From assembly GCA_028688515.1 (NCBI GenBank), contig JAQTXZ010000001.1, forward strand, positions 1 through 64,000: a stretch of DNA of 64,000 bases, given 5' to 3'. Shown in pieces: positions 4,426 to 57,786 of this stretch (position 1 is its first letter; each line of letters opens with the position of its first letter). The DNA comes from Patescibacteria group bacterium (GTDB lineage Bacteria; Patescibacteriota; Patescibacteriia; 2-12-FULL-60-25). A program made the translations under genes and the position numbers. The notes below the pieces were generated by a model. It made no database searches, was not told the origin of the DNA, and was given only the letters and a program-made list of their open reading frames with translations.

Positions 4426-4605
4426 TTGTCATCCTCGGTCGAGGTCGCCCTACCTTTGTCATCCTCGGGCGAAGTCCTACGGAGACCCGGGGATCCAATA
4501 GAATTAATTTGTTTCAATTTAATCTTACTGGATTTCCGCCTCAACTAACCGCGGGAATGACAAAAACGGATAATTCCCTCCGCCTAGGTGAAGGAATGAC
4601 AATGG
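4426..4605. repeat. dispersed repeat family A (CCCGGGGATC type)
   Basis: It contains 'gtcatcctcgggcgaagtc', 'agacccggggatcc' and 'cgcgggaatgaca' with an AT-rich centre; the ends are inverse complements. Copies are at 32968-33115, 36764-36853 (inside queA), 41536-41672 and, more diverged, 44861-44935. It is the same kind of element that gives VIxAEAGIQ or CHSR-like peptides when translated. Confidence 0.8.
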
Positions 4606-17959: not shown

Positions 17960-17987
17960 ATTATAAACCCTTGATTTTTTGCGTCAA
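17960..17987 (-). promoter_or_regulatory. promoter of 17904 gene
   Basis: TTGACG (minus strand of 17982-17987), 16-nt spacer, TATAAT (minus strand of 17960-17965). Its -35 nearly touches the -35 of the divergent tyrS promoter. Confidence 0.75.
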
Positions 17988-17988
17988 G

Positions 17989-18017
17989 TTGCAACATGTT
18001 GGCTTTTTCGCTAACAT
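17989..18017 (+). promoter_or_regulatory. tyrS promoter
   Basis: TTGCAA (17989-17994), 17-nt spacer, TAACAT (18012-18017), 7 nt before ATG 18025. This makes the mRNA leaderless. Confidence 0.65.
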
Positions 18018-18024
18018 TCGATAC

Positions 18025-19428
18025 ATGCCCAACATTAAAACCGATGACCAGACGGTCACGAATTTTCTTGAACGCGCCGTGGAAAACGCTTATCCCAACA
18101 AAGAGGCGTTTGCGCAGGCGCTCAAATCCGGCAAGCAACTGACCGCGTATCTTGGAATTGACCCGACGGGACCGTCACTGCATCTGGGCCATGCCATCGC
18201 CATGCGCAAGTTGAAAGAGCTGCAAGACATGGGTCATCGCTGCATTTTGTTGATCGGAGATTTTACAGCCATGATCGGCGATCCGACCGATAAGGCCGCC
18301 GCGCGCAAGCAGCTTACTCGAGAACAAGTTTTGGAAAATTGTAAAAATTATCGCGACCAAGCGTCAAAAATTCTTGACATGGAAGGCAAAGTAACGGGCA
18401 ATCCGATTGAGATGAAATATAATAGTGAATGGCTGGGCAAGATGTCATTTGCGGAAGTTTTGGAGTTGGCCTCGCATTTTACCGTTCAGCAGATGTTGGA
18501 GCGCGATATGTTCCGCAGGCGCATGTCGTGGCGCTCGATTTGTCCCGAATGCCATCACGAGAATTTGGTGTCGGCCGAGGTTCAGCAGACGGTGACTGAT
18601 GAGAACGGCAAAAAAGTCGTGCTTTCGAGCATTGATAATTTAACTTGGAAATGCAAAGAATGCGCGCATGAATACACCACGGAAATGGCGGATCAAATTC
18701 ATTCTCCGCGCCCGATTTTTATCCACGAGTTCCTATATCCTCTGATGCAAGGTTATGATTCGGTTGCCATGGATGTTGATATCGAAGTCGGCGGCAACGA
18801 TCAAACGTTTAACATGCTGGCCGGACGCGAGTTGATGAAAGATTTGAAAGGCAAAGAAAAATTTGTTGTTGCCTGTAAACTTTTGGCTGATCCTGACGGC
18901 AAAAAGATGGGCAAGAGCGAAGGTAATATGATTACGTTAAACGACGCGCCGGAAGAAATGTTCGGCAAAGTCATGAGCTGGCCGGACGGAGTGATTTTGG
19001 ACGGTTTGGAAATCTGCACCAATATGCCCGGCGAAGAAATCGATGAGATATCAACGCGTCTCGATGAAGGCGTAAACCCGGTCGGTTTTAAACGCCGCTT
19101 GGCGCGTGAAATCGTTTCGACTTGGCATTCTATAGACGCTGCCAACCGCGCCGAAGAGCATTTCGACCGTTTGTTTAAAGATCACCAAGCGCCGGAAGAA
19201 ATGTCAGAATTCGAAGTCAGTGAACGCCGCAACAAAGTCGTCGATTTATTAGTGCTTGCAAAACTCGTGCCATCAAAAACAGAAGCCAGACGACAAATTG
19301 AACAAGGGGCGGTCAAAGTCGACGGTCAGCCGGTCAGCGACACCGAAGCGGAAGTCGAGATCGTCGATCATCAGCTCGTGCTGCAAAAGGGTAAGCGTGG
19401 ATTTGCAAGGATAAAACTAAAGAACTAG
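18025..19428 (+). CDS. tyrS: tyrosyl-tRNA synthetase with inserted zinc ribbon
   Basis: Class I synthetase for Tyr. The 467-residue protein has the HIGH-type motif PTGPSLHLGHAIAM, the substrate region VGGNDQTFNML, the KMSKS-type KKMGKSEGN loop and a C-terminal S4 RNA-binding domain (SKTEARRQIEQGAVKVDG). It is longer than usual because of an insertion at about residues 172-228 with CPEC and, about 40 residues later, CKEC, a likely Cys4 zinc ribbon. Such a ribbon is not part of the standard bacterial enzyme as I know it. The start is fixed by the promoter 7 nt upstream. Confidence 0.95.
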   Translation: MPNIKTDDQTVTNFLERAVENAYPNKEAFAQALKSGKQLTAYLGIDPTGPSLHLGHAIAMRKLKELQDMGHRCILLIGDFTAMIGDPTDKAAARKQLTREQVLENCKNYRDQASKILDMEGKVTGNPIEMKYNSEWLGKMSFAEVLELASHFTVQQMLERDMFRRRMSWRSICPECHHENLVSAEVQQTVTDENGKKVVLSSIDNLTWKCKECAHEYTTEMADQIHSPRPIFIHEFLYPLMQGYDSVAMDVDIEVGGNDQTFNMLAGRELMKDLKGKEKFVVACKLLADPDGKKMGKSEGNMITLNDAPEEMFGKVMSWPDGVILDGLEICTNMPGEEIDEISTRLDEGVNPVGFKRRLAREIVSTWHSIDAANRAEEHFDRLFKDHQAPEEMSEFEVSERRNKVVDLLVLAKLVPSKTEARRQIEQGAVKVDGQPVSDTEAEVEIVDHQLVLQKGKRGFARIKLKN

Positions 19429-19434
19429 TTCTTC

Positions 19435-19525
19435 TGTCATCTTGAGCGTAACGTAGTGGAGTCGAAAGATCTGGCTCGACCGGTCCTGATCCTTCGAATC
19501 CGTATGACTCCGCTCAGGATGATAA
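19435..19525. repeat. dispersed repeat family B (TCATCTTGAGCGTAACG type)
   Basis: 'tcatcttgagcgtaacgtag' and 'gactccgctcaggatgat' form the two ends of an imperfect palindrome. A second copy is in frame inside argS (20121-20215). Confidence 0.75.
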
Positions 19526-19534
19526 GGTGTAAGT

Positions 19535-21475
19535 ATGTACACATTAGATGCAATCAAAACAAATCTCGCCCGTATTCTCGGCGAGGTTGTCGAAAGTAAA
19601 ATAGATGCGCAGGAAATAGTCACCCCGCCTAAACCCGGGATGGGAGATTTGGCGTTCGGGTGTTTTAAACTGGCAAAACAGCTAGGAAAGAGTCCAAACG
19701 AGATTGCAAAAAAGTTGGCGGATGATTTTGGCCAACTTGATCCCACGATAAAATCAGTGCAGGCGACAGGCCCGTATTTTAACGTCACGCTAAACAACGG
19801 CGCGTTTACAGAACGCGTGGTTAAGGATATCGAACTGCAAGGCAAGAAATACGGTTCGCAGGATGTCGGAAAGAACAAACAGGTGATGCTTGAGTATGCG
19901 AATTTGAATACGCATAAAGAGTTTCACGTCGGCCACTTGCGCAACATTCTTTTGGGACTTTCGGTGAGTAGGATCTTGGATAATGCGGGCTGGAAGACGA
20001 TTCCGGTTTCGTATTTGAATGACATGGGTTCGCATGTTGCAAAATGTCTTTGGCTTTTTGTTAAAAAGCACGCCAAAGCGGTGCCGCAACCCAAGAAGCG
20101 CAATACATCAAAAAAACAATCCGTTATCCTGAGCGCAGTCGAAGGATCCGGATCTAAGGTTGATGAGCGCGAGCCAGATCTTTCGACTCCGTCGGACTCC
20201 GCTCAAGATGACAGGGCTGCTTGGTCGACTCATGTTTTACAAAATTTGACTCCCGCGTGGGTGAGAAAGATGATCGAGTCGATTCCGGTCAACGAACGAA
20301 CGGGGAGTTATCTTGGAGATTTGTATGTCGAGTCGACAAAGTTGTTGGAAGAAAATGAGGATTGGAAGAGCGAGGTTTCTTCGGCGTTGAATAAGATGGA
20401 GACTCACGATCCGGCTTGGACATTACTGTGGCAAGAGACTCGTCGTTGGAGCTACATGGAATTTAGCCGCATGGTCAAAGATTTTGGAGTTGTAATCGAA
20501 AGGCAGTATTTTGAAAGTGATTTCGTCGATCAAAGCCATACTGTTGTAAAAGAGCTGATGGACAAGGGTTTGGCTATTGAATCGCGTGGAGCAATTATCG
20601 TCGATTTGGAGAATCATCCGGATCCTGAAATTCAAAAACAAAAGTTGGGCGTTTTCATGATCCGCAAATCGGACGGCACTTTGATTTACGCGGCCAAAGA
20701 CATTCCGCTTGCGGAGCTTAAGTTTGTCGAATATCCGGAAATGGTTTCGAGTATCATGGTCGTCGATTCGCGCCAATCTTTATATTTCAAGCAACTTTTT
20801 ACGGTGCTCAAACTAATGGGTTATACCAAGCCATTCAACCATCTGGCTTACGAGTTTGTGACTTTGCCTGACGGCGCCATGGCCAGCCGCAAAGGCAATA
20901 CGATTTTGCTTAAAGATTTTATGTCCGCAATGCAGCAATCCGCCCGCGATGAGATATTGAAGCGGCATGACGATTGGAACGAAGGAAAAGTTGAACATAC
21001 GGCTTGGTGTATTGCTTTGGCCGGAGTGAGCTTTACCATCCTAAAACAAGATCCCGAAAAGATTATTGTATTTGACATGCAAAAAGCGTTGGCCTTTGAC
21101 GGCGATACGGGTCCGTACGTGCAATATGCGGCGACAAGGTTGCAGGCAATTTTGCGCAAAGCGGAAAAAGAAAAAATAAAATTCGCCAAAGCGGATTTAA
21201 GCGTGTTGACGGAGGAATCCGAAAAGCAGCTTGCGCTTTGTTTGGCCGCGATGCCGAATATGTGCGTAAAATCCGCAGAAAATTTTAGGCCGTCACTCGT
21301 TGCTCAGTGGCTTTTGGAAGCGGCTGTGCGCGTCAATGCTTTTTATCGCGACGTTGCCGTGATGGAAGCGCAGGAAGATACCAAGAAAGCTCGCCTGCGC
21401 CTTGTCGCCGCTGCTCACGACGCGATCGAGAACGGTCTTTATTTGCTTGGCATACCCTTGCCGGATGCGATGTAG
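19535..21475 (+). CDS. argS: arginyl-tRNA synthetase with in-frame repeat insertion
   Basis: Class I synthetase for Arg, 646 residues. The N-terminal Add1 domain, the HIGH-type motif (LEYANLNTHKEFHVGHLRN, within residues 110-133), the MASRKGN motif (KMSKS equivalent) and the C-terminal anticodon domain are intact. Residues about 195-228 (SVILSAVEGS... STPSDSAQDD) are coded by a family B dispersed repeat, an extra loop not found in other ArgS proteins. The reading frame is open through it, so the protein probably tolerates it on the surface. TAAGGT lies 6 nt before ATG 19535. Confidence 0.95.
   Translation: MYTLDAIKTNLARILGEVVESKIDAQEIVTPPKPGMGDLAFGCFKLAKQLGKSPNEIAKKLADDFGQLDPTIKSVQATGPYFNVTLNNGAFTERVVKDIELQGKKYGSQDVGKNKQVMLEYANLNTHKEFHVGHLRNILLGLSVSRILDNAGWKTIPVSYLNDMGSHVAKCLWLFVKKHAKAVPQPKKRNTSKKQSVILSAVEGSGSKVDEREPDLSTPSDSAQDDRAAWSTHVLQNLTPAWVRKMIESIPVNERTGSYLGDLYVESTKLLEENEDWKSEVSSALNKMETHDPAWTLLWQETRRWSYMEFSRMVKDFGVVIERQYFESDFVDQSHTVVKELMDKGLAIESRGAIIVDLENHPDPEIQKQKLGVFMIRKSDGTLIYAAKDIPLAELKFVEYPEMVSSIMVVDSRQSLYFKQLFTVLKLMGYTKPFNHLAYEFVTLPDGAMASRKGNTILLKDFMSAMQQSARDEILKRHDDWNEGKVEHTAWCIALAGVSFTILKQDPEKIIVFDMQKALAFDGDTGPYVQYAATRLQAILRKAEKEKIKFAKADLSVLTEESEKQLALCLAAMPNMCVKSAENFRPSLVAQWLLEAAVRVNAFYRDVAVMEAQEDTKKARLRLVAAAHDAIENGLYLLGIPLPDAM
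20121..20215. repeat. family B repeat inside argS
   Basis: 'gttatcctgagcgcagtcga' to 'ctccgctcaagatgacag'. It is the same element as 19435-19525 but read in the opposite sense, and it keeps argS in frame. Confidence 0.8.
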
Positions 21476-28595: not shown

Positions 28596-29944
28596 TCAGG
28601 TCGCCCCGTCGTCAAGCAACAGGGCAACGTCTGGAGGCGGCTTCGGTGTCACGAGGCCCTCGACCGCCATGGCTATGGCCGTTGCTTGATTGCGGAGCTT
28701 TATGCGCGTCTCGACAGCTTCCCTTATTTCGCGAGCCAAGCGCTTCCGTTCCGAGTCGCTCTTGGGGAGCGGGATCTGGATCTCGCGAATACGCTTGCCC
28801 AGGGTGTCGATAATGTCTTGCGTGAACTGCTTGGCCTTCACCTGCCTGCGAACGATCGGAGTGTTTAGAGCAGCAAACAAGAGCCAAGGGTCTAACTCAT
28901 CGGGTTGTTGGACACGTATGCGAAGGATGTGGCTTTGAAACAGCATCGGCAGGTCGCTTTCGGTCACAATCGCTGTGGTCCCGATGAGGTACGTGCCGTC
29001 GCGAACCATCAGAATGTCACCGGCTCTTACGTCGCAAGCCTTACGGTAGGCTTCGTAGATAGCCTCACTCACGCCGTGCTTGAAGTCGGCCTTCATCTCC
29101 CAATTCGAGAGGTCGGAGGTCCGAATGAACGGGATTCTGCCGGTCCCGTAAGCCATCTTGCCGATTTCCGTGCCGGTCGAGAGTGTCACGACGCCCCGGT
29201 TCACCAACGACCCGATCTCAAGGAGCTTGTGGGTGCGGCGCAGTTTCTTGAGGTAGCCGTCGATCTCCGGGTCGTAGTACTTCGGAACGAGGATGCGTCC
29301 CCGAATCGCTCCGGATGACAGAACGAAGCCCTTGTGGTCCGGGGCACGCACCTTGCCGCTGCAGAAGGCGTGGTACGCCTCCGTCACTTCGGGCACTTCA
29401 TCTAGGAGTCTGTAGGCCCCGCGCTCATCCTTTCTGATGGTCGGATTACCTCGAGAGTCATGCCCGCACCACTTAGCGTCTGCCATGAAGATGTCGTGCG
29501 GGCCGGTTGGAGATTTGTTCTCCAGTACCAAGATGCAGACTTTCGTGTGGGTTCCGCCTTTGCCGCTGGTCTTGAACAGCACCTCGGGCATAGTCACCGC
29601 AACACGGATCGTTGTCCGCTGCATGATAAAGGTCACGATGTGCTCGTATGAAGGGTTCCCAAGAATGCTCTCGGGCAGAACGATCCCCAACCGCCCGCCT
29701 CGTTTGAGGAGCTGAAGACAGCGCTCCAAGAACAGCAGGTGGGGCGGTTGGTCGTCATGAAGCGTAGTCGTCTTCGAGAAGTCGCCGGTCGCGGGATGCC
29801 GCTTCCACTTGCATCCAAGGTCGTATTGACCAAGAGTTGCCGCACCCTTCACCGGGATCTTGCTACCGAACGGAGGATTGGTGAAGACAACATTGAATTG
29901 CCCGAGCCCAATTGCAGCTCGCGCCGCAGAATGCCATTCCGACG
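28596..29944 (-). pseudogene. truncated N6-adenine DNA methyltransferase with specificity domain
   Basis: The C-terminal two thirds of a type I-like HsdM protein fused to a target-recognition domain. It contains the catalytic NPPF motif (VVFTNPPFGSK), the following helix and strand (RLGIVLPESILGNPSYEHI) and an HsdS-like half (GTGRIPFIRTSDLSNW, MVRDGTYLIGTTAIV, KRIREIQIPLP). The N-terminus with the SAM-binding motif is lost: the frame runs into the oppositely oriented IS200-type fragment at about 29940. So it is probably inactive. No restriction subunit is seen beside it. GC is higher than in the housekeeping genes. Confidence 0.8.
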
Positions 29945-30240
29945 AACACAAGGAGTGCAAGATCGAGGAAGGGCACCTGATGCCTGACCACGTGCACATG
30001 CTGATCTCGATCCCCCCGAAGTACGCGGTGGCGCAGATTATCGGATACATCAAGGGGAAGAGCGCGATCCACATTGCGCGGACCTACATGGGCGTCCGAC
30101 GAAACTTCGTCGGGCAGAATTTCTGGGCGCGCGGGTACTTCGTGTCGACCGTAGGTCGGGACGAAGCGGCCGTGCGCGACTACATCCGGAAGCAGGAGGC
30201 CGAAGACAAGCGACTGGAGCAGATGAAGTTGAAGATGTAG
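29945..30240 (+). pseudogene. IS200/IS605-type Y1 transposase, N-terminus missing
   Basis: The last 95-100 residues of a TnpA-like single-strand transposase: the HUH motif in MPDHVHMLISIPPK, AQIIGYIKGKSAIHIAR, FWARGYFVSTVG and the catalytic Tyr helix VRDYIRKQE. About 40-50 residues are missing from the N-terminus, where it meets the broken methyltransferase head to head. Plausibly its insertion or a later deletion broke both genes. Confidence 0.85.
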
Positions 30241-30243
30241 TAG

Positions 30244-34938: not shown

Positions 34939-35190
34939 AAACCCTCCTACCTCCCTTTGCCTAGGGAGTAGTTAGATAGGCAACAAAGTTACTAAGCCTA
35001 ACTCACCCGGCCCTCTCTTACCCAAGAGAGGGTTCTGCCGGACTATCTAGCATGAAAACTCACAAGCACAAGGATGATGCGGTTCTCTCTCTTGGGTAAG
35101 AGAGAGCTAGAGTGAGTTAGGCAAAGTCGCTCAGCAACTTCTCCTTGATAAAGGAGAAGTTGTATCCGATGCGACAGGGGTTTCCCTATT
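34936..35190. repeat. composite palindromic repeat, family D
   Basis: Nested hairpins: 'cctacctccctttgcctaggg', then 'taactcacccggccctctcttacccaagagaggg', its inverse 'ctctctcttgggtaagagagag', then 'cttctccttgataaaggagaag'. It looks like one element inserted into another. It fills the gap between yraN and the next promoter; no gene seen. Confidence 0.75.
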
Positions 35191-35815: not shown

Positions 35816-35900
35816 TGCGTACATAACGTGCATCACGTACCTGCATGCATCCGACGACGTTATGTACGTTATGCACGCTATGTACGTTATGTACGCTAGT
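35816..35900. repeat. inverted 9-mer arrays, CGTTATGTA type
   Basis: CGTTATGTA, CGTTATGCA, CGCTATGTA, CGTTATGTA in 9-nt phase (about 35867-35897), with an inverse arm GTACATAACGTGCATCACGTAC at 35820-35842. It reaches the stop of queA. Confidence 0.75.
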
Positions 35901-37083
35901 TGATAAACATCGCATCCCCGAAAGAGTAAAATCTGTAATCATTGGCGATTGCCTCGCGGTAGGCATTGAGTACAAAAGAACGCCCGGCGTCCTCCGTACC
36001 ACGCACATCGTACGGCGTGCCACGTTTATTCATCCTGTGTTGAGCAAAAGCGCTGACGAGTACGACAAGCGTCGATTCGGGCAAATGAAAGTTGGTTATC
36101 ATTGCGTCGACAACGTTGAATTTGTCGCCGGGCTTTATAAAAATAGAAGTGAAGCCACGGTGATCCCCCCTGCTCCCCTTGGTAAGGGGGAGTGATTCGA
36201 GTGCGCGGACTGTTGTGGTGCCAACGGCAATCACACGTCCGCCCCGCGATTTTGTTGCCTTAATCGCATCAACCGTTTCTTGCGGCACATCAATCCATTC
36301 TTCATGCATCACATGTTCTTCCAAAGTCTCTGCCATCACGGGGCGGAATGTGCCGAGTCCGACGTGCAGAGTCACTGACGCGAAATTGATGTTTTGTTTT
36401 TTGAGTTTTTCTATCAACTCCGGAGTAAAGTGAAAGCCGGCTGTCGGCGCTGCGGCAGAACCGGTTTTTTCAGCATAGACTGTTTGATAATCATCCAAAC
36501 TCTCAAACTGTTTTACATATGGCGGAGTTGGGACTTGTCCGTGACTGTCCGCGAATGCAAAAACTTGTTCATTGGAAATGTTAAAGCGCAAAAGTACGGA
36601 ACCGTCCGGCAACTTTTCGATGAGCGCTGCCTTTACGTCATCTGCAAAAAGCAGCTCGTCGTTGAGGTTCAACTTCTTGCCTGGTTTGACGAGCGCTAGC
36701 CAATTCTCACCTTGCGGCCTAAGCAAAAAGACTTCGAACAATCTTTCCTTCGTTTCCTTCTTTTTGTCATCCTCGGGCGAAGTCCGACGTAGACCCGGGG
36801 ATCTAGTAGAATTAATTTTATCATATTGGATTCCCGCCTCTGCGAGAATGACAGAAGGGGTGGCGTTTGAAGTGGCGCTCAATCTCGCTCTAAAAACCTT
36901 GGTATCATTCCAAATTAAAAGATCGCCCGGGCGCAAAAATTCGGGCAGGTCAAAAAAATGTTTGTGCTCTATTTTTTGCGAACTACACGTCAAAACCATC
37001 ATTTTTGAGTGGTCTCGCGGACGGATCGGTTTTTGAGCTATGCGTTCTTGCGGCAGCTCGTACCAAAAATCTTTGGTCAACAT
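35896..37083 (-). CDS. queA: tRNA ribosyltransferase-isomerase QueA with in-frame repeat
   Basis: S-adenosylmethionine:tRNA ribosyltransferase-isomerase, the queuosine pathway step that makes epoxyqueuosine from 7-aminomethyl-deazaguanine tRNA. Signatures: YELPQERIAQKPIRPRDHSKMM, LLIWNDTKV, FLLRPQGENWLALVKPGKK, GSAAAPTAGFHFTPELI, HVGLGTFRPV and YREAIANDYRFYSFGDAM. Residues about 85-115 (VILAEAGIQYDK... SPGLRR) come from a family A repeat and have no counterpart in QueA. ATG 37083 avoids the heptamer array. No other que genes are in the window. Confidence 0.95.
   Translation of the reverse strand: MLTKDFWYELPQERIAQKPIRPRDHSKMMVLTCSSQKIEHKHFFDLPEFLRPGDLLIWNDTKVFRARLSATSNATPSVILAEAGIQYDKINSTRSPGLRRTSPEDDKKKETKERLFEVFLLRPQGENWLALVKPGKKLNLNDELLFADDVKAALIEKLPDGSVLLRFNISNEQVFAFADSHGQVPTPPYVKQFESLDDYQTVYAEKTGSAAAPTAGFHFTPELIEKLKKQNINFASVTLHVGLGTFRPVMAETLEEHVMHEEWIDVPQETVDAIKATKSRGGRVIAVGTTTVRALESLPLTKGSRGDHRGFTSIFIKPGDKFNVVDAMITNFHLPESTLVVLVSAFAQHRMNKRGTPYDVRGTEDAGRSFVLNAYREAIANDYRFYSFGDAMFIN
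36764..36853. repeat. family A repeat inside queA
   Basis: 'tgtcatcctcgggcgaagtc', 'gtagacccggggatct' and 'gcgagaatgaca'. It lies in a surface-loop position of QueA and keeps the reading frame. Confidence 0.85.
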
Positions 37084-39732: not shown

Positions 39733-39827
39733 ATGCTGTAGAGACGCAAAATCTTGCGTATAGCTTAAAACCGCAAATTAGATAAACAGTTTTAGGTTAG
39801 ACGCAAGATTTTGCGTCTCTACAGCAT
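39733..39827. repeat. perfect inverted repeat, GTAGAGACGC family
   Basis: Two perfect 27-bp arms (39733-39759 and 39801-39827), each containing GTAGAGACGCAAAATCTTGCG, enclose 41 bp with an inner TAAAAC/GTTTTA pair. No ORF. A MITE-like element. A smaller relative is at 61720-61752. Confidence 0.9.
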
Positions 39828-57638: not shown

Positions 57639-57655
57639 ATTTAAGTATTTTAGCA

Positions 57656-57770
57656 TAACTCACTATAGCTCTCTCTTACCCAAGAGAGAGAACCTCATCA
57701 TCTTCGCGTTATTGAGTTTTTTCGGTTTCAGAACCCTCTCTTGGGTAAGAGAGGGCAGGGTGAGTTATGC
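57656..57770. repeat. dispersed palindrome, ACTCACCC-CTCTCTTACCC family
   Basis: 'taactcactatagctctctc' with 'ttacccaagagagag', then 'ccctctcttgggtaagaggg' and 'agggtgagttat'. It lies between tmk-like gene and thyX. Confidence 0.8.
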
Positions 57771-57786
57771 TGTCGGACATAGAACA

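Follow-up and report, generated by a model that had tools for sequence, protein, structure and literature searches.

Why does an arginyl-tRNA synthetase gene in a small patescibacterial genome hold, within its reading frame, a palindromic repeat that also occurs in the spacer just upstream? We analyzed the first 64 kb (the window) of contig C4, which is 971 kb long and belongs to a genome of 1.29 Mb that is 99% complete. Judging from sequence, and with a probability of about 0.87, we think that the segment is one of the dispersed copies of a non-autonomous REP-like palindromic element, inserted in a variable linker and translated in ArgS, and that the copies surviving inside genes are those that are in frame, free of stops and in tolerant loops. 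The features at the locus are as follows.

17971..19428, plus strand: tyrS, the upstream neighbor (from the ORF list, start codon uncertain, identity read from the translation)
19435..19524, no strand assigned: second full element, between tyrS and argS, with arms at 19435-19481 and 19478-19524; an inverted-dimer relative of the argS element
19535..21475, plus strand: argS, arginyl-tRNA synthetase, 646 codons (646 aa) with no internal stop, single copy; hosts the repeat
20122..20213, plus strand: full palindromic element in argS, 92 nt, two facing arms with the tags outside; codes VILSAVEGSGSKVDEREPDLSTPSDSAQDD in frame
20122..20158, minus strand: left arm of the argS element, short-loop form, tag CGTT, stem ATCCT/AGGAT
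20167..20213, plus strand: right arm of the argS element, long-loop form, outer tag TGTC, stem ATCTT/AAGAT

The preliminary description had placed a repeat at 20121-20215, in frame inside argS, and a related copy between tyrS and argS at 19435-19525. We found the first at 20122-20213, in frame and stop-free, so those coordinates were right to within two bases, and the second at 19435-19524, with the tyrS stop 6 nt before it. The two elements match each other both directly (81% over 43 nt) and in inverted orientation (100% over 21 nt and over 15 nt) because each consists of two facing arms.

The rest of ArgS is intact, as had been claimed. The Pfam domains Arg_tRNA_synt_N, tRNA-synt_1d and DALR_1 are present and the flanks of the insert align on both sides; in structure alignments the homology breaks off before the linker and picks up again after it. 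ArgS has one match in its own genome, which rules out a second intact argS. About 34 residues had been attributed to the repeat, and there are 34 between SKK and AW in the linker (SKK-QSVILSAVEGSGSKVDEREPDLSTPSDSAQDDRA-AW), with SVILSAVEGSGSK and EPDLSTPSDSAQDDR as stretches coded by the insert. The two closest congeners have nine residues each at this place (SKK-FPESQLDES-AW and SKK-SPEPQLNES-AW). With 34 residues against 9, a net gain of 25 codons over these two, the native linker has been partly replaced or has diverged. The extra repeat-coded segment is therefore real, but it is not a clean insertion. Among the congeners we saw no insertion intermediates, target duplications or near-identical empty sites, and no clean junction is visible because they are too divergent (about 55-73% in ArgS).

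In congeners and other relatives the linker at this site is variable, rich in K and P, and lacks the repeat segment (the named relatives of ArgS are Patescibacteria or Parcubacteria assemblies). The loop might have turned up in ArgS proteins without the repeat; it did not, and the congeners lack it. A more distant ArgS, from Falkowbacteria, has an SSAEATADK repeat in the same linker (L095:3553-3606), and its genome holds about four copies like it. An AlphaFold model of ArgS built from a five-sequence alignment had a mean pLDDT of 57.7 and placed the insert between two helices, as coil of low confidence. Confidence is low over so much of the model that this placement does not count, and it does not establish that the insert is exposed.

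A linker that is naturally variable and K/P-rich could come to resemble a repeat by chance or convergence. However, the match to other copies is one of DNA and not just of peptide, extending over 48-91 nt with E-values down to 4e-16, and shuffling the window gives an expectation of 0.01 occurrences for the core 21-mer. These DNA-level matches and the shuffles refute chance similarity, and we put its probability at virtually nil.

Searching the genome with a 97-nt argS repeat query gave 37 matches, many with E<1e-9; beyond the window, the analysis covered the parts of the genome that surround such matches. A covariance model of one arm (R1) gave 71 matches at E<=1, of which 34 also pass E<=3e-5, and the weaker ones grade into sister families with the common ends TGTCAT and ATGACA. 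The right arm in argS is the best match of this model in the genome (E 1.5e-15, a copy included in the training set), while the left arm matches weakly (20123-20158, E 0.028). Both arms of the tyrS-argS element were also training copies and match at 7.5e-11 and 3.9e-11. The unit is about 40 nt long, and a full element, with two units facing each other, measures about 90 nt. Full elements with facing arms and tags outside are found at 20122, 19435, 146860, 233605 and 181811.

The repeat unit is a hairpin under constraint. We aligned 19 arm copies from this genome, in which the stem AUCUU/AAGAU alternates with AUCUC/GAGAU and AUCCU/AGGAU. Standard pairs fill 99.1% of the cells, 12 cells have changed on both sides, and none of 500 shuffles scored as high; the pairing was destroyed when the partners were slid against each other. 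The first two stem pairs are A-U in 17 of the 19 copies and U-A in 18. The stem has five standard pairs, a tandem G-A mismatch and one further pair, and the loop is about 16 nt in most copies and about 6 nt in a short form (the left arms in ArgS and MurE). Among 23 parsed arms the outer tag, which was not imposed in the search, is TGTC in 18 and CGTC in 2 (20/23), and the unpaired tail is CTG in 10, CTC in 6 and CCG in 3.

Folded alone, the argS element reaches a predicted -39.8 kcal/mol (z -2.31) and the tyrS-argS element -42.1 kcal/mol (z -4.35). Such a stable predicted hairpin in the mRNA leaves room for another explanation, in which the insert is eliminated either ahead of translation or in its course, by RNA processing at the hairpin, as an intervening sequence, or by ribosomal bypassing like that of mitochondrial byp elements. 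An Rfam search with the element matched no family, which speaks against this, and the reading frames discussed below bear on it more directly.

The argS-type repeat has a patchy distribution, being found at E<=1e-5 in 19 of 96 genomes including this one. Because of this patchiness and the dispersed copies, we infer that a non-autonomous hairpin element spreads across the genome by transposition or by copying in trans. A plasmid search with the consensus arm gave one weak match, in Hymenobacter, and an exact 23-mer of the element was found in 14 stretches of viral contigs. For a transposase we searched one family, PF01797 (Y1), and in this genome we found no intact member and one partial match.

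29944..30195, plus strand: the only Y1 (HUH) transposase-like match of the genome, partial to PF01797 (profile 37-121 of 121), with no element at its flanks

A REP driven by a RAYT was rejected, as the sole PF01797 match is partial and without a flanking element. The partial IS200-like Y1 remnant at 29944-30241 overlaps a long minus-strand frame (28596-30074) in a stretch that looks GC-rich and is possibly an acquired island.

The preliminary description had proposed looking for further such peptides inside conserved proteins, and these exist. In-frame, stop-free copies of the argS-type repeat lie inside an RluA/RluD-type pseudouridine synthase (KHEPDLSAPSDSAQDDK), a MurE-like ligase (VILSVVERSGLVGPDPSTPSDFVQDDR), UvrB (KHEPDLSTPSNFARDD), a GT4 glycosyltransferase (SFILSEAEESGSAGPDPSTSSDYVQDD) and LeuRS, where the repeat is read in another frame and codes SKEISRLRRTSLEMTK in a loop just before the editing domain (L080:1440-1559). 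QueA has an in-frame, stop-free insert from another family.

35896..37080, minus strand: queA, S-adenosylmethionine:tRNA ribosyltransferase-isomerase (match to 1vky chain A, E 8.7e-92; single match in the genome)
36765..36872, minus strand: in-frame element of a second repeat family (D1) inside queA; codes SVILAEAGIQYDKINSTRSPGLRRTSPEDDK

Alignments of UvrB, LeuRS and QueA to solved structures continue past the insert. UvrB passes from query 436 to 465 while the chain passes from 427 to 429 (28 unaligned residues against 1), LeuRS from 300 to 340 while the chain passes from 237 to 242 (39 against 4), and QueA from 76 to 115 while 1vky chain A passes from 89 to 90 (38 residues skipped at one junction against 0). 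UvrB, LeuRS, QueA and the MurE-like gene are single-copy in this genome. Absence from relatives was checked for ArgS, UvrB, MurE and QueA, and in part for LeuRS: the QueA insert is absent in most congeners, and in UvrB, MurE and LeuRS of congeners the insert is absent or another repeat stands in its place.

Family D1 also has copies at 4457 and 32969. Other repeats in the window are a near-perfect 39-nt inverted repeat with a 17-nt spacer at 39733-39827 (GTAGAGACGCAAAATCTTGCGT type), a candidate dispersed element, and a larger dispersed repeat of AACTCCTCCTGCCTCCTCTTACCCAAGAGGAGG type with several copies and orientations (2572-2626, 34995-35125 and 57650-57772). Elsewhere in the genome, further in-frame repeat-coded stretches occur in an AsnB-like protein (L113:1347-3362), a MurD-like fusion (L106:2131-4722), ComEC (L109:2165-3874) and one more protein. 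These copies are longer, more degenerate or of other families, and they are less fully tested.

Assemblies can go wrong at repeats, and the genome may have been assembled from a metagenome, so repeat copies could have been joined into genes by an assembly or binning artefact. We regard this as extremely improbable, since seven genes are intact on both sides of their inserts within long contigs, all in frame, and separately assembled congeners have repeat insertions at the same loops.

When the best matches are merged, there are about 30 sites. Six of these are internal to conserved genes (ArgS, UvrB, LeuRS, MurE-like, pseudouridine synthase, GT4), and in all six the repeat is in frame; if frame were irrelevant, this would have a probability of (1/3)^6 = 0.0014. 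The remaining 24 sites are intergenic or C-terminal. A scan of open frames could miss broken genes, so the flanks of these 24 were inspected, and the long frames there start or stop outside the element or stop shortly past it. None is split, and no gene is broken. With random landing at a coding density of about 0.85 (an approximate figure from simple ORF tiling of the window), about 25 of the 30 sites would be expected in genes. Removal of gene-breaking insertions by selection is supported.

If the insert were taken out of the message or skipped by the ribosome, frame and stop-freeness would not matter. All six internal copies and the one in QueA are in frame and open, which counts against removal and makes it very unlikely to our minds. 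Under translation of the insert, which we prefer, most genic insertions would be lost, and those kept would be in frame, open and in a loop or linker that tolerates 15-40 extra residues. Because the frame is kept in single-copy genes, the surviving inserts are probably translated, and the peptide would be part of mature ArgS, with an effect on the enzyme that is presumably close to neutral.

The same loops hold different repeats in congeners. In LeuRS, two congeners have a different repeat in this loop, VIARSSSDEAISGDCRAPSNSARND and VIARNPMTKQSTVDCHAPSNSARND (L126:831-920 and L127:2320-2400), and a search with that DNA in three genomes gave between 8 and 26 matches per genome; other congeners have a short loop. 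In one congener (G001) the place of the argS-type repeat in UvrB is taken by a PLPPFHKG...NPLDKGG repeat (L117:2275-2364), with eight matches in that genome, and QueA of another (L187) has RHPELVSGSQ, a repeat-like segment, at the same loop. This recurrent occupancy may mean that tolerant loops were hit independently, or else that exchange among the elements has overwritten old inserts. We offer only tentatively the wider idea that, across the genus, several unrelated palindromic families continue to insert, time and again, in one small set of loops in core proteins of translation and repair, so that these loops would be repeat-tolerant hotspots refilled by different families in each species, possibly with exchange through the shared TGTCAT/ATGACA ends. 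Repeats also make up the N-terminal extension of a GrpE-like protein, which is made of several families in this genome (L028:1404-1529) and of the argS-type repeat in congener G002 (L154:1499-1549).

This pattern also bears on whether the insert has been co-opted for ArgS, as an mRNA hairpin for regulation or as a new binding surface. It is kept in an essential gene, and several of the hosts act on tRNA or rRNA (ArgS, LeuRS, QueA and the pseudouridine synthase). However, the remaining hosts (UvrB, the MurE-like ligase and the glycosyltransferase) are unrelated, no congener has the insert at the ArgS site, and sister species fill the same loops with different families, as expected of a tolerant site and not of a function. 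Co-option is therefore unlikely, in our estimate, and insertion into a tolerated linker remains our reading.

Taken as tolerated insertions, these repeats extend protein-coding palindromic elements to the CPR, whose members form a very large group of bacteria and have small genomes. In one genome, repeat-coded peptides are present in UvrB, a cell-wall ligase, a tRNA-modifying enzyme and two tRNA synthetases. Such natural cases allow the tolerance of essential enzymes for random inserts to be tested. They are also a warning for the annotation and structure prediction of CPR proteins. In the literature that we searched, we found no report of coding palindromic repeats in Patescibacteria or CPR, and no paper with the element's peptide or core-sequence strings.

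Among known systems, the GTAG REPs and REPINs are small hairpins moved by RAYT transposases, often as inverted pairs and sometimes inside genes. The argS-type element is alike in these arrangements, but its tag is TGTC or CGTC and not GTAG, and no RAYT is flanked by copies.

The preliminary description had drawn a parallel to Rickettsia palindromic elements in an unrelated group. Further hosts were found and the loop is absent from congeners, and therefore the parallel holds. RPE-1 and the other long families (Ogata et al. 2000, 2002), as they are presented at second hand in PMC2229807 and PMC10969869, are palindromic mobile repeats that contain an open frame and occur both between genes and as in-frame fusions with conserved genes. 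Their units are 105-146 bp, in contrast to an arm of about 40 nt and an element of about 90 nt here, and in what these two sources relate, expression is shown for Rickettsia only; guanylate kinase is a translated and active example (PMC2229807). Coding palindromic repeats are also known from Wolbachia and Methanocaldococcus jannaschii, going by titles cited in PMC2229807, and the likeness to ours, palindromes with coding potential, is drawn from those titles and not from sequence.

The closest resemblance is to the CGTC-tagged REPs (Di Nocera et al. 2013, PMC3733652), which have the tag variants TGTC and CCTC, AT-initial stems of 8-9 bp (first two positions A and T), loops of 4-5 nt with other lengths in some species, a tail that is mostly CCA, facing dimers and no transposase. 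That survey reports them from five phyla, Patescibacteria not among them. Our element shares the TGTC/CGTC outer tag, the AT-initial stem with alternative complementary residues and the facing dimers with tags outside. As to a dedicated transposase, the search for PF01797 gave the one partial match without flanking elements. It differs in the longer loop of most copies, the tandem G-A mismatch, which leaves the stem borderline against 8-9 bp, and the tail, mostly CTG or CTC as opposed to CCA. With this longer loop and mismatched stem, membership in the CGTC superfamily is likely but not proven. RPE-4 and RPE-6 of Rickettsia conorii are assigned to the CGTC group (PMC3733652), so while the hosts belong to an unrelated group, the repeats themselves may be related. 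The same survey also reports that recB of two Xanthomonas species holds different REPs at roughly one position. A repeat in an essential synthetase, stressed in the preliminary description, is present but has precedents: in-frame REPs in uvrB (that of R. conorii included), tRNA synthetases and pseudouridine synthases of other bacteria are already listed there (PMC3733652), and our element is found in the same three kinds of gene. What is new here is the phylum, how many hosts a single small genome contains, and that the same loops are used recurrently.
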